Below, piece after piece: positions 43,475 to 48,784 of a stretch of DNA of 64,000 nt (the stretch's first letter is position 1; every line of letters starts with the position of its first letter). Location: assembly GCF_011039205.1 (NCBI RefSeq), contig NZ_JAAKEL010000001.1, positions 372,001 to 436,000 on the forward strand, written 5' to 3'. The position numbers and the translations under genes were made by a program. The notes beneath the pieces are model-generated. The model was given only the letters and a program-made list of their open reading frames with translations, was not told the origin of the DNA and did not search any database. This DNA is from Dysgonomonas sp. ZJ279 (GTDB lineage: Bacteria; Bacteroidota; Bacteroidia; Bacteroidales; Dysgonomonadaceae).

Positions 43475-44251
43475 TTATTCTTCAATGTTTTTTCTAACCT
43501 TAGTCAGAAAATCAAGCATAGCTTCACTATCCTTATTTTCTATGATATTGAGCAAGCTTTTCAATTCCGCACGAATGTTCTCTACTTGTGAGGGTGTATA
43601 TGGATTGAATAAGATCTCGGTCAGTAGGTAATTATCTTCCGACAACAAGCCTTTAGCAATGTCCATATGACGTTTAAATGTTGTTCCCGGAGCTTCCTGA
43701 TGTTTCATTACCGATGCAAATACAAGAGTAGATGCAAAAGGGATGGATAGGGAATAAGCGATTGTTTCATCATGCTCTTCGAAAGAGTATTCAAATACAC
43801 GAAGATTTAGCCCTCTGTATAAATTGAGGAAAAACTCCTTGCCTTTGGGACTAGACTCCGATATCACAATTGCGCTTTGTGTGCTTAAGTTGCGAAGATC
43901 GGCAAATGTAGGTCCAAACATAGGATGGGAAGAGGCAAAGGGTTGTTCGACACTTGCATAAAATTCTTTCAGTCCTGTTTTTACCGAAGCTATATCGGAT
44001 ATAATACAATCTTTGCTAATATAAGGCAGTATTGCTTTAAAGGCATCAATCGTATATTTTACTGTAGCTGCATTTATCACCAATTCGGGGTTAAATTCTT
44101 TGATCTCCTTCGGATCACTCATCCGAACGGTATTGTATATGAATCTCAATCGCTGAGGATCGGTATCAAAAACTGCTAATTCGTGATCGAAACTAAGCAC
44201 ATCACCAAAGAAGGAACCCATTTTTCCGGCACCAAGTATAAGTATTCTCAT
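43475..44251 (-). CDS. tyrA: Prephenate dehydrogenase
   Basis: NAD(P)-dependent step to 4-hydroxyphenylpyruvate in tyrosine synthesis. A 258-residue protein with the nucleotide-binding loop ILGAGKMGSFFGDVL at the N-terminus and the prephenate-binding stretch SSHPMFGPT (about 110-118). No fused ACT or chorismate mutase domain. Last gene of the phe/tyr operon that starts with pheA, and probably under the attenuator at 48582-48723. Confidence 0.93.
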   Translation of the reverse strand: MRILILGAGKMGSFFGDVLSFDHELAVFDTDPQRLRFIYNTVRMSDPKEIKEFNPELVINAATVKYTIDAFKAILPYISKDCIISDIASVKTGLKEFYASVEQPFASSHPMFGPTFADLRNLSTQSAIVISESSPKGKEFFLNLYRGLNLRVFEYSFEEHDETIAYSLSIPFASTLVFASVMKHQEAPGTTFKRHMDIAKGLLSEDNYLLTEILFNPYTPSQVENIRAELKSLLNIIENKDSEAMLDFLTKVRKNIEE

Positions 44252-44332: not shown

Positions 44333-45394
44333 TTATTTGTTTAAAATATCTACTTGTTGTCTTACCGACTCTTCGTGGATAGCTTCCAAAACAACACGCA
44401 TGAATTCAGGATTCATACCCATGCCGCTAGCCTGAGAAATACGCTTGTTCAAGATCTCATCATAACGTTCAGTTTGAACAACTGTCATGTTATGCTCTTT
44501 CTTGAATGTACCTATTTCGCAAGAGATACGCATACGTTTAGCCATAAGCTCTAATAGTTGATCGTCCATTTCATCAATTTGTCTGCGAAGATCAGATAAG
44601 TCTTCTGTCGATTGTTTGCCATCACGAATAACCAATGCAGAAAGTATTTCTTTCAGTCTGCTAGGAGTTACTTGTTGCGATGCATCACTCCACGCGTTAT
44701 CAGGATCACAATGTGTTTCGATGATTAAACCATCGAAATTTAGGTCCATAGCTTGTTGAGACAGTGGCTGGATTAAATCGCGTCTACCACCGATGTGGCT
44801 AGGGTCGCAGATGATTGGAAGATCAGGGTAACGGCGTTTCAATTCGATAGGAATATGCCATTGAGGAAGATTACGGTAGATCTTTTTGTCATAAGAGCTG
44901 AATCCACGGTGAATAGCCCCTAATTTAGTTAAGCCTGCATTGCTAAGGCGCTCTAATGCACCGATCCACAATTCAAGATCAGGATTTACAGGATTCTTTA
45001 CAAGGACAGGAATATCGACGCCTTCCAGTGCATCGGCAATTTCTTGTACAGCAAAAGGGTTTGCAGTTGTACGTGCACCAATCCAAAGAAGATCCACTCC
45101 GTATTTCAATGCTTCGTAAACATGTTTTTGTGTCGCTACCTCTGTAGAAACATAAAGACCTGTTTCTTGCTTTACTTTTTTTAGCCAAGCAAGTCCCTGA
45201 CTGCCGATACCTTCGAATCCACCCGGTTTAGTACGGGGTTTCCATATACCGGCACGCATAATTTTTATACCATCAGCAGCTAATGCTTTGGCCGCGCTCA
45301 TTACTTGTTCTTCTGTTTCAGCACTACAAGGTCCTGCAATTACCATCGGACGCTTAGCGTCAACCCCGGGTAGTAAAATTGATTCTAGTTTCAT
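44333..45394 (-). CDS. Bifunctional 3-deoxy-7-phosphoheptulonate synthase / chorismate mutase (type II)
   Basis: A 353-residue fusion. Residues 1-255 form a KdsA-like (type I beta) DAHP synthase (MVIAGPCSAETEEQV, KPRTKPGGFEG, CDPSHIGGRRDLI, ETHCDPDNAWSDA). Residues about 265-350 form an AroQ chorismate mutase (LRRQIDEMDDQLLELMAKRM). The fusion couples entry into the aromatic pathway with the branch to prephenate, and is common in Bacteroidota. It lies between the GNAT pair and tyrA in the phe/tyr operon. Confidence 0.95.
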   Translation of the reverse strand: MKLESILLPGVDAKRPMVIAGPCSAETEEQVMSAAKALAADGIKIMRAGIWKPRTKPGGFEGIGSQGLAWLKKVKQETGLYVSTEVATQKHVYEALKYGVDLLWIGARTTANPFAVQEIADALEGVDIPVLVKNPVNPDLELWIGALERLSNAGLTKLGAIHRGFSSYDKKIYRNLPQWHIPIELKRRYPDLPIICDPSHIGGRRDLIQPLSQQAMDLNFDGLIIETHCDPDNAWSDASQQVTPSRLKEILSALVIRDGKQSTEDLSDLRRQIDEMDDQLLELMAKRMRISCEIGTFKKEHNMTVVQTERYDEILNKRISQASGMGMNPEFMRVVLEAIHEESVRQQVDILNK

Positions 45395-45416: not shown

Positions 45417-45968
45417 TTATTCTTTTATTCTTAATGTCATTATAATATTATCTATATATCCGCCCAATTTTGTTTTGTAGTAGTACTTTCTCTTCCCTTC
45501 TTCTACAAAACCCATTTTTTTGTAAAGCGCAATGCCCGCTTCGTTCTCGGCAAATACTTCTAAACAAAGAATCTCTAATTCGGGATTACTTTTAGCCCAA
45601 CGAATTGCATTTTCAAAAAGGGCTGTGCCTAAACCTGTATTCTGCCATTCTTTTCGTATAGCAATAGCTAGCTCATTGGTATGACGTAATTTTCTCATTT
45701 GTTTACCCAGTAAACCGAAAGTTGCAATTACTATATCATCTGCTGTCGCTATAAGGAGCAGGCTATTGTCGTTATCATAAGATTTAATCCAATTCGTTTC
45801 ATCCTCAATAGTCGGGTTGAACTCTTCTTCATACGAAAGGAGATAGTCGCTATCTCTAAGATAGGATTTTGCAGCAGTAATTAATCCTTCCGCATCCTCT
45901 ATCGTAGCTTCCCGTATTGTTACAGATTTGCCATTCTTGAGCGTTATATGTATTGGTTCAAACTTCAT
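45417..45968 (-). CDS. GNAT-family N-acetyltransferase (copy B of a tandem pair)
   Basis: A 183-residue GNAT protein. The acetyl-CoA-binding region R-x-x-G-x-G/A is represented by RKEWQNTGLGTALFENAIRWAK, and the family end ALYKKMGFVEEGKRKYYY is present. It shares a start nearly identical to its upstream neighbour (MKFEPIHITLKNGKSVTIREA). Both show clear paralogy. Its start overlaps the stop of the neighbour by 11 bases. Substrate unknown. It has been inserted in an aromatic amino acid operon, and may act on an amino acid or a ribosomal/peptide substrate. Confidence 0.85.
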   Translation of the reverse strand: MKFEPIHITLKNGKSVTIREATIEDAEGLITAAKSYLRDSDYLLSYEEEFNPTIEDETNWIKSYDNDNSLLLIATADDIVIATFGLLGKQMRKLRHTNELAIAIRKEWQNTGLGTALFENAIRWAKSNPELEILCLEVFAENEAGIALYKKMGFVEEGKRKYYYKTKLGGYIDNIIMTLRIKE

Positions 45969-46518
45969 GTCTTTTTATTTTTAATGTCATTATAACATTA
46001 TCGGCATAAACTCCCGATGCTATTTTAATGAAATCTTTTTGTTTACCGACTTCTTCAAAACCATATTTTTTATATGTAGCTAAACCGATTTTATTCGTAT
46101 TATAGGTTTCTAACCACAAGAGTTCGAGTTCAGAAATTTTAGCCCAACTAATCATAGCCTCAAATAGAGCGGAGCCAACTCCTTGATTTCGCCATTCGCT
46201 CAACAAACCGATTCCGATACCAGCGGTATGCTTCATCATCGCCCTTTGAGAACCGTTTAGGCTTATATTTCCAATAATAGAATTATCACATAGTGCCAGT
46301 AATAATAAACTATTTTCTTGGTTGATAAAAGATTGTATCCAATTTTTCTCATCTTCTATTGTCGGATTAAATTCTCCTTCAATATAAGGGATAAACTCGC
46401 TTTCCTCCACATACTCTCTAATAGTCACTATCAATTCTTCCGCATCACTTACCGATGCTTCCCGTATTGTTACTGTCTTACCATTCTTGAGTTCTATATG
46501 TATTGGTTCAAACTTCAT
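45958..46518 (-). CDS. GNAT-family N-acetyltransferase (copy A of a tandem pair)
   Basis: A 186-residue GNAT protein, paralogue of the next gene: N-terminus MKFEPIHIELKNGKTVTIREA, acetyl-CoA region LSEWRNQGVGSALFEAMISWAK, end ATYKKYGFEEVGKQKDFIK. The alignment to its partner runs over the whole length with about half of the residues shared by eye. The two genes overlap by 11 bases and arose by tandem duplication. They lie between the aminotransferase gene and the DAHP synthase/chorismate mutase gene. Confidence 0.85.
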   Translation of the reverse strand: MKFEPIHIELKNGKTVTIREASVSDAEELIVTIREYVEESEFIPYIEGEFNPTIEDEKNWIQSFINQENSLLLLALCDNSIIGNISLNGSQRAMMKHTAGIGIGLLSEWRNQGVGSALFEAMISWAKISELELLWLETYNTNKIGLATYKKYGFEEVGKQKDFIKIASGVYADNVIMTLKIKRHEV

Positions 46519-46537: not shown

Positions 46538-47704
46538 TTAAACGATCTCTTTTATTCGTTTCAACGCTTCTTTAAGCATTGTTTCGTTGCAACATAATGA
46601 TATGCGTATATATCTTTCCCCTTTGTCTCCGAAAATAAATCCGGGAGTTAGGAATACTTTCGCATCATACAATATTTTATCGGCTAGTTCTTCGCTTCCT
46701 TTATACTGTGCCGGTATTTTTCCCCATAAGAACATTCCGACTTGATTTTTATCAAAAGTACAGCCAAGTGCATCCATTATTTCTTCGGCATACTTGCGGC
46801 GAGTACTATATAGTTCGATATTCATAGTCTCATGCCATTCTTTCGGATTATGAAGTGCTGCTATTGCAGCCTCTTGCATCGGTTTGAATTGTCCGCTATC
46901 GATATTGCTCAATACTTTCAGCACCCATTGTATGAATTGGGGATTCGAAGCTAGCATTCCCATACGCCAACCGGGCATATTATGAGATTTACTCATCGAA
47001 TTTAATTCTATGCAGATATCTTTAGCACCATCTACTTGCAAAATGCTAAGTGGTTTTTGATTTAGAATCAAGCTGTATGGATTATCATGTACTATTATGA
47101 TTCCATGTTTCTTTCCGAAAGCAACAAGTTTTTCAAATAGCTCGATCGTTGCATTTGCACCTGTTGGCATATTCGGATAGTTTACCCACATTAGTTTAAT
47201 ATTGGATAAGTGCATTTTTTCTAATGCATCGAAATCTGGTTGCCAGTTATTATTTTCATCCAAATCGTAACTGTGGATTTTTGCTCCTATCAGTTTATTT
47301 ATAGATGTATAAGTCGGATAGCCCGGATTAGGAATTAAAACGCCGTCACCCGGGTTTATAAATGCAAGCGAGATATGTAGTATTCCTTCTTTCGACCCGA
47401 TTAATGGCTGAATTTCATTCGCAGGATTAAGAATTACACCATAACAATCTTTATACCAGTCGGCAAATGCTTTTCTCAACTCTGGTATGCCTACATGAGG
47501 CTGATATCCATGTGTATCGCTCTTAGCTGCTGACAAACTTAGTGCATCAATTGTTTCTTTCGATGGTGGAAGATCGGGGCTTCCGATACCTAAACTGATC
47601 ACATTTTTGCCTGCTGCATTCATCTCAGCAACTTCTTTCAATTTGATTGAGAAGTAGTATTCGTTTACCGAGTTAAGGCGCTCTGCCGGTATAATAGTTT
47701 TCAT
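46538..47704 (-). CDS. Pyridoxal-phosphate-dependent class I/II aminotransferase
   Basis: A 388-residue fold-type I aminotransferase. The PLP Lys is in ELNSMSKSHNMPGWRMG (about 235-251), and the upstream NPGYPTY and YPNMPTGA motifs are intact. It resembles LL-diaminopimelate/aspartate-type enzymes. Its place between pheA and tyrA in an aromatic amino acid operon suggests it transaminates phenylpyruvate and 4-hydroxyphenylpyruvate. The annotation of specificity is inference. Confidence 0.88.
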   Translation of the reverse strand: MKTIIPAERLNSVNEYYFSIKLKEVAEMNAAGKNVISLGIGSPDLPPSKETIDALSLSAAKSDTHGYQPHVGIPELRKAFADWYKDCYGVILNPANEIQPLIGSKEGILHISLAFINPGDGVLIPNPGYPTYTSINKLIGAKIHSYDLDENNNWQPDFDALEKMHLSNIKLMWVNYPNMPTGANATIELFEKLVAFGKKHGIIIVHDNPYSLILNQKPLSILQVDGAKDICIELNSMSKSHNMPGWRMGMLASNPQFIQWVLKVLSNIDSGQFKPMQEAAIAALHNPKEWHETMNIELYSTRRKYAEEIMDALGCTFDKNQVGMFLWGKIPAQYKGSEELADKILYDAKVFLTPGFIFGDKGERYIRISLCCNETMLKEALKRIKEIV

Positions 47705-47726: not shown

Positions 47727-48569
47727 TTACGATTCGCTTTGTCTTCCTTCGGGATAGTCTCCCAAAACCTTCAGTTCACTGATTAGCGGACGAATAGCAT
47801 CTAACGATTGTCTATAACGTGCCAAATCTGAAAATTTGAGGTCTACATAAAACTGATATTCCCACTCGCGACCAATGATTGGCAATGATTGTATTTTAGT
47901 CAGATTAATATCGTAGAACGAGAATACCGATAATACTTTCGATAAGCTACCTTCGTTATGAGGTGTTGTAAATACTATGGATGATTTATTCAATACTTCA
48001 TCTTTCTGTATTTCTTCGACAATCCATGGATTACCAAAAATAAGAAAGCGAGTAAAATTGTGTTTATTCGTCTCAATTCCCCTCGCCAATATATTCAAGC
48101 CATATATTTCTGCAGCTTTCGTGCTACATATTGCTGCACAGCCCAACGTCTTATTTGCCGCTATATCGCGGGCAGCAAGAGCTGTATCTTCGTGTTCTAC
48201 TACCTTTACTTCTGACAGGGTATCTAAGAACTCTGTACATTGCATAAGGGCAATAGGATGAGACTGTACTTCTTTGATGTCGTGAATAGTTTGTCCGGGT
48301 AAAGCTGCTAAACAATGCGATATGCGTTGTTTGTATTCTCCGGCAATAGGTAATTTGTTGATTTTAAGTAGCTCATAGTTTGGTAATAGACTTCCGGCAA
48401 TCGTATTCTCTATAGCCATGATGCCTATTGTGTTGGGATCTTTCTTTATTACAGTAAAAATATCCCTGAATGTAACGCAAGGCACTATTTCAACTTCTTC
48501 CTCGAAAAAATTCTCTGCCGCAATGCCATGATATGCACCTAGACCTCCCTGAATAGCAACTTTCTTCAT
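47727..48569 (-). CDS. pheA: Prephenate dehydratase
   Basis: Converts prephenate to phenylpyruvate. A 280-residue protein: the dehydratase domain (about 1-180) includes GLGAYHGIAAENFF, MAIENTIAGSL, SHCLAAL, SHPIALMQC and the TRFLIFG catalytic motif with its Thr. An ACT domain (about 195-275) follows. The Phe-binding ESRP motif of most ACT domains reads QSLP here, so allosteric feedback may be altered. First structural gene of the operon, with its start 12 bases after the attenuator terminator. Confidence 0.95.
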   Translation of the reverse strand: MKKVAIQGGLGAYHGIAAENFFEEEVEIVPCVTFRDIFTVIKKDPNTIGIMAIENTIAGSLLPNYELLKINKLPIAGEYKQRISHCLAALPGQTIHDIKEVQSHPIALMQCTEFLDTLSEVKVVEHEDTALAARDIAANKTLGCAAICSTKAAEIYGLNILARGIETNKHNFTRFLIFGNPWIVEEIQKDEVLNKSSIVFTTPHNEGSLSKVLSVFSFYDINLTKIQSLPIIGREWEYQFYVDLKFSDLARYRQSLDAIRPLISELKVLGDYPEGRQSES

Positions 48570-48581
48570 CTTAATTTTTTC

Positions 48582-48614
48582 AAAAAAAAATCCCGTCGTT
48601 TCGGACAGGATTTT
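48582..48614 (-). terminator. Attenuator terminator in the pheA leader
   Basis: The minus strand reads AAAATCCTGTC (48614-48604), loop CGAAAC, GACGGGATTTT (48597-48587), then five more T: an 11-base-pair stem with one U-G pair and a nine-U tail. It ends 12 bases before the pheA ATG, which is too close to be the end of another gene, since no gene lies upstream on that strand apart from the leader peptide. Confidence 0.9.
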
Positions 48615-48663
48615 ATATATTTCTATTTTGTTATTTCATTTCAAATTTCTCATACAAAATCCT
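48607..48663 (-). promoter_or_regulatory. Potential antiterminator of the pheA attenuator
   Basis: The minus-strand segment AGGATTTTGTAT (48663-48652) can pair over 12 bases, with one G-U pair, with ATATAAAATCCT (48618-48607). The latter shares eight bases with the left arm of the terminator, so the two structures exclude each other. The upstream arm begins three bases after the leader-peptide stop codon. A ribosome that finishes the leader would cover it and favour termination, while one stalled at Phe/Tyr codons would leave it free. Confidence 0.8.
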
Positions 48664-48666
48664 ATT

Positions 48667-48723
48667 TCACTTTTTAAAGTAAAAGTAAAAAAAGAAAAAG
48701 TATGTATAAGAAAAGTTCTTCAT
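48667..48723 (-). CDS. pheA operon leader peptide (Phe/Tyr-rich, 18 residues)
   Basis: The peptide is MKNFSYTYFFFFYFYFKK, with seven Phe and four Tyr codons, eleven of eighteen residues. It is too short for routine gene calling. It starts about 25 bases after the predicted transcription start and ends just before the antiterminator arm. The composition and position are those of a classical amino-acid attenuator leader, here sensing charged tRNA-Phe and perhaps tRNA-Tyr. The peptide itself is probably not functional after translation. Confidence 0.88.
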   Translation of the reverse strand: MKNFSYTYFFFFYFYFKK

Positions 48724-48754
48724 TCTAAAATATTCTTAGCTTTATTTATGACTA

Positions 48755-48784
48755 CAAATGTAATACTTTTTTGAATAGTGCAAA
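48755..48784 (-). promoter_or_regulatory. Promoter of the phe/tyr operon
   Basis: Minus strand: TTTG (48781-48784), 18 bases, then TACATTTG (48755-48762). The expected start is near 48748, giving a leader RNA of about 180 bases that contains the leader peptide, antiterminator and terminator. Confidence 0.7.

Follow-up and report, generated by a model that had tools for sequence, protein, structure and literature searches.

In Escherichia coli the pheA leader is rich in Phe only, and the segments of the trp attenuator follow the order 1:2 protector, 2:3 antiterminator and 3:4 terminator. Naville and Gautheret in 2010 (PMC2965389) were aware of no demonstrated leader-peptide system outside the Proteobacteria and Actinobacteria that preceded their own. 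For the Bacteroidetes, the mRNAs of which are without Shine–Dalgarno sequences (PMC6847099), Weinberg et al. in 2010 (PMC2864571) described Bacteroid-trp (RF01692) as a predicted cis-regulatory RNA, and Ryan et al. in 2020 (PMC7366714) reported short open reading frames in 5' UTRs of B. thetaiotaomicron that are 'reminiscent of leader peptides'. A 2021 transcriptome study of F. psychrophilum (PMC9723704) presents structured 5' elements at pheA and hisG, conserved in Flavobacteriaceae and with no Rfam hits, together with clues to leader-peptide attenuation 5' of amino-acid operons.

Here we describe a leader region 5' of pheA in Dysgonomonas sp. ZJ279. We put at about 0.93 the probability that this is a transcription attenuator of the classical ribosome-mediated type, sensing charged tRNA-Phe and tRNA-Tyr; the attenuator interpretation first given to this locus is therefore very probably right. 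The original prediction had added that its author was not aware of a characterised example in the phylum. This stands in so far as we found no experimentally tested amino-acid attenuator of Bacteroidota in the open-access literature, but predicted signs exist in RF01692 and the Flavobacteriaceae pheA element, and since these came earlier the idea of attenuation is not new for the phylum.

Layout of the leader and its operon

All the parts of an attenuator can be read from the sequence directly 5' of pheA, at 48582–48784 on the minus strand of the window (the whole stretch of 64,000 nucleotides of DNA that was analysed):

48755–48784, minus strand: Bacteroidota sigma-ABfr promoter, −33 TTTG and −7 TACATTTG (TAcaTTTG); from the sequence
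48667–48723, minus strand: leader peptide MKNFSYTYFFFFYFYFKK with its stop codon, the proposed sensor; 18 codons, 7 Phe and 4 Tyr; from the sequence and relatives
48704–48714, minus strand: segment 1, the 5' strand of the protector hairpin, within leader codons 4–8; from the minimum free energy (MFE) fold and covariation
48652–48663, minus strand: antiterminator arm A, AGGATTTTGTAT; from the sequence and the covariation of A:B
48645–48655, minus strand: segment 2, which pairs with segment 1 as the 3' strand of the protector and shares positions with the end of arm A; from the MFE fold and covariation
48607–48618, minus strand: shared arm B, ATATAAAATCCT, as paired in the antiterminator; from the sequence and A:B covariation
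48587–48614, minus strand: terminator hairpin B:C, AAAATCCTGTC-CGAAAC-GACGGGATTTT; from terminator detection and covariation
48582–48590, minus strand: terminator U-tract of 9 T, of which the first four belong to the stem as well; from the sequence

Arms A and B pair over 12 bp, one of which is a G-U, and the leader stop codon lies 3 nt 5' of arm A. The terminator ends at 48582, 12 nt 5' of the pheA ATG (48569). In 3000 dinucleotide-shuffled versions of the upstream region no ATG-initiated short open reading frame with at least 11 Phe and Tyr codons arose, one terminator was detected in the region compared with 0.0 ± 0.2 in shuffles, and the fold of the leader RNA has a z-score of −3.7 against shuffles. 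In the MFE fold segment 1 pairs with segment 2, so that a protector hairpin encloses the control codons, and this completes a four-segment attenuator made up of the 1:2 protector, the A:B antiterminator and the B:C terminator. The original prediction had placed the promoter, the leader with its 7 Phe and 4 Tyr, the 12-bp antiterminator and the competing terminator with nine U, ending 12 nt before the pheA ATG, at these same positions, and the sequence agrees. It had also taken this list to contain all parts; those that it named are present, but the protector hairpin had been missed.

The genes downstream of the leader are:

47727–48569, minus strand: pheA, coding for prephenate dehydratase, at the head of the operon (PF00800, E = 4e-53)
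46538–47704, minus strand: aminotransferase class I/II (PF00155)
45417–46518, minus strand: a tandem pair of genes for GNAT acetyltransferases, lying within the operon (PF00583)
44333–45394, minus strand: DAHP synthase–chorismate mutase fusion (PF00793 and PF01817)
43475–44251, minus strand: tyrA, prephenate dehydrogenase (PF02153)

By their Pfam domains these genes make up an operon for the joint Phe/Tyr pathway, the end products of which match the codons in the leader. The aminotransferase follows pheA in all 79 named relatives with matches; the closest named relatives of pheA, at 81–86% identity, are mostly Dysgonomonas. Homologues of the GNAT genes occupy the same place in the operon in just 9 of the 79, and the tandem pair is perhaps a lineage-specific insertion.

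The distance from the leader to pheA bears on a different role, proposed for leader genes near structural genes, in which ribosome reinitiation would let the leader mainly boost pheA translation. Bacteroidetes are enriched in leader genes of this type, but the effect peaks there at 11–14 nt between the genes (PMC4833913). Here 97 nt and a strong terminator separate the leader stop from the pheA ATG, and the chance that reinitiation is the main function appears negligible.

Conservation of codons and spacing

Comparison of 110 loci gave 90 distinct pheA upstream regions, two of which run off the end of a contig, leaving 88 that are long enough to judge. A Phe/Tyr leader is found in all 88, and the terminator in 86 by a strict pattern, the remaining two being recognised by eye. 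In each of the 84 relatives with enough DNA there is a perfect TANNTTTG −7 box 5' of the leader ATG, where shuffles lead one to expect about 4, and its distance to the leader is mostly 27–40 nt.

Among the eight codons that end with the last aromatic one in each leader, 655 of 688 (95%) code for Phe or Tyr, and the Leu codons TTA and TTG are not found in this part of any relative. Their absence from so T-rich a run argues for selection on the codons of the peptide. The last aromatic codon lies 13.1 ± 2.1 nt from the GGA of arm A in the relatives, and the stop codon −1.2 ± 9.6 nt from the arm. The stop codon 3 nt before arm A, on which the original prediction had rested its geometry, is thus real in this sequence, but the stop shifts by tens of nucleotides among relatives while the aromatic end is fixed. 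We have accordingly rejected the stop position as the key geometry; the conserved element is the distance from the aromatic run to the arm.

These constraints weigh against the short open reading frame being an incidental U-rich stretch, beside a terminator and antiterminator that are constitutive, bound by a protein or part of a riboswitch. In line with such a reading, the RNA is rich in U, and no ribosome is needed for the antiterminator, the protector or the terminator to form. However, the aromatic reading frame is intact in 88 of 88 loci, free of TTA and TTG in its aromatic run and at a fixed spacing to arm A, and at gathering scores the window matches no Rfam family, riboswitches, T-box and RF01692 included. 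We consider an incidental reading frame extremely unlikely.

Inside the Bacteroidales the peptide itself is strongly conserved (FxYxFxFYFYF). This would suit a nascent-chain arrest peptide of the TnaC kind, in which free Phe or Tyr is sensed by the peptide in the exit tunnel rather than charged tRNA by the codons, and a stall of this kind would work through the same RNA switch. Across the class, however, the peptides are alike in aromatic richness only (for example, MASNRFYFSNNFYFFF, MNNSRAYFYGFYFYF and MKLFNTYYFGYFYYF), with Phe and Tyr interchanging freely, and what ends 13 nt before arm A is an aromatic run and not a fixed motif. An arrest peptide is therefore very unlikely, and we prefer the sensing of charged tRNA by the leader codons.

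Covariation of the alternative helices

The helices were tested on an alignment of 58 sequences that had not been fitted to the structures tested. Pairing is 89.8% in the antiterminator A:B, with 45 cells compensated, and 98.9% in the terminator B:C, again with 45; in the protector 1:2 it is 89.1% with 27 such cells, 6 of the 9 consensus pairs being compensated. For each of the three helices, 0 of 500 shuffles reach the observed value for cells paired, cells compensated or covariation score, although, as the relatives are not independent, these statistics are not probabilities. When the partner strand was slid by 1–3 columns, pairing fell to 32–62%. Conservation in relatives, both of the aromatic codons and of the alternative stems with compensatory changes, had been proposed at the outset as the check on the attenuator, and both are seen.

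Arm B is found as CCTGTC, CCTGCC, CCTGCTC or CCCGTC, and these variants are matched by changes in both A and C, the hallmark of an arm used by two helices. Segments 1 and 2 also pair in other families of the class, where their sequences differ, and the energy of the protector duplex there is −8.9 kcal/mol with its own partner versus −6.1 kcal/mol with swapped partners. A consensus fold computed from all aligned sequences lacks the antiterminator, as expected from folds that are mutually exclusive, and also the protector 1:2; for the protector, the pairing to be tested was specified by name.

A proposed ribosome-controlled switch

From these parts and helices we infer the following response to starvation. 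A ribosome would start on the 18-codon leader as RNA polymerase transcribes the next 100 nt. With Phe or Tyr in short supply, it would stall at one of the 11 aromatic codons, opening the protector hairpin and leaving arm A free to pair with the terminator's 5' arm; no terminator would then form and pheA, the aminotransferase, the DAHP synthase–chorismate mutase fusion and tyrA would be transcribed. If Phe and Tyr are plentiful, the ribosome would reach the Lys-Lys-stop end and cover arm A, and transcription would stop. On an untranslated leader the protector hairpin would compete with the antiterminator.

Switching of this kind is supported by modelling, in which a partition function was computed for the transcript as far as arm B with the ribosome footprint barred from pairing. 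For the window, the modelled probability of the antiterminator is 0.83–0.86 while the A site holds any codon as far as the last Phe, and it falls to 0.49 with Lys17 there and to 0.0 with Lys18 or the stop codon. In the model, then, a finished leader does mask arm A, as had been suggested from the sequence. The probability is flat up to the last Phe codon, and stalls at Phe and at Tyr are therefore predicted to be equivalent. The same switch is obtained in 56 of 58 relatives and is kept when the 3' edge of the footprint is set between +9 and +15 nt; in the two exceptions the leader runs through and well beyond arm A, and the model predicts no masking at the stop. With no ribosome the equilibrium model gives a mean antiterminator probability of 0.61, and the default state may be either fold.

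Occurrence in the phylum and in the genome

A covariance-model search of 296 genomes of the phylum (E ≤ 0.001) gave matches in 17, including the genome of the window, all of them directly 5' of pheA and each with an aromatic leader. A further 79 pheA upstream regions were inspected directly by a three-part test requiring leader, antiterminator and terminator. The full arrangement was found in 13 of 14 genomes of the order (of these 14, 11 belong to other families and three to other genera of the same family), in 38 of 44 of the class and in 3 of 21 of other classes of the phylum. It was seen in 0 of 790 shuffles of related upstream regions, whereas the leader alone, in 116 of 790, is less specific. 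The terminator filter asked for at least 3 G-C pairs, with the shuffles as control; at least 4 missed AT-rich terminators. Five regions that fail the full pattern look like real leaders by eye. In one family of the class, direct inspection of five genomes found pheA with no recognisable aromatic leader in four. Outside the order, leaders often have Trp codons among those for Phe and Tyr (six loci), and in these Trp may possibly be a further input to the joint aromatic pathway.

Other operons of the genome were examined one by one. For Trp there is a match to RF01692 (56.6 bits, contig C12, 251420–251553) with the leader MQFQLLNTYWWWRSQLKKS and its stop codon 5' of trpB. Outside the window there are also a His leader, MKKTIFHHHCELLTTGK and stop, 5' of hisG (contig C12, about 514188) and an Ile/Leu/Val leader, MTNCILHVLVLNVLLVDQSN and stop, 5' of ilvD (contig C13, about 6704). 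The three leaders hold the matching codons and all fold as protector plus terminator. No leader attenuator was found upstream of the Thr operon (aspartokinase–homoserine dehydrogenase), and a scan of the genome for the His-codon pattern gave too many chance matches to be used alone. With trp, his and ilv leaders of the same design, attenuation seems to be in routine use in this genome.

Taking these observations together, we lean towards the view that Phe/Tyr attenuation is ancestral to the class Bacteroidia, as part of a standard set for Phe/Tyr, Trp, His and Ile/Leu/Val. The first ribosome would thus be kept close behind RNA polymerase in these leaders despite initiation without Shine–Dalgarno sequences, and the pheA leader would read shortage of Phe and of Tyr as an either-or signal for the joint pathway. 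Leader-peptide attenuation needs the ribosome and RNA polymerase to be synchronised, and coupling thus becomes testable with one reporter, in a phylum with unusual translation initiation. The element also offers an amino-acid-responsive part for genetics in gut Bacteroidales, and the analysis yields a covariance model of a family that Rfam lacks.

Comparison with known systems

The pheA element scores below the gathering scores of both RF01859 (Phe_leader) and RF01692, and membership of either was rejected; against RF01859 the window scores 22.4 bits with a cut-off of 55, and 0 of 40 genomes of the class are above it. The E. coli pheA attenuator (RF01859) is nevertheless alike in having an aromatic leader, an antiterminator and a terminator 5' of pheA, and in its working. 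The difference is that here Phe and Tyr codons are mixed, over an operon that makes both, which predicts either-or sensing, unlike the Phe-only leader of E. coli. The order of segments is that of the four-segment E. coli trp attenuator, while the amino acids and sequences differ. Bacteroid-trp is likewise a predicted cis-regulatory RNA of Bacteroidetes, and its copy at trpB in this genome has the same protector and terminator layout, but it has Trp codons and a different sequence from the element at pheA. The 5' element of pheA in Flavobacteriaceae is most likely of the same kind as the one described here; the accessible part of that report (PMC9723704) gives no leader sequence, no four-segment model and, for pheA, nothing beyond Flavobacteriaceae. 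What appears to be new is the description of the Phe/Tyr leader, with its structure of four segments, its spread through the class and its covariation. The element is thus classical in principle and new as a described family.
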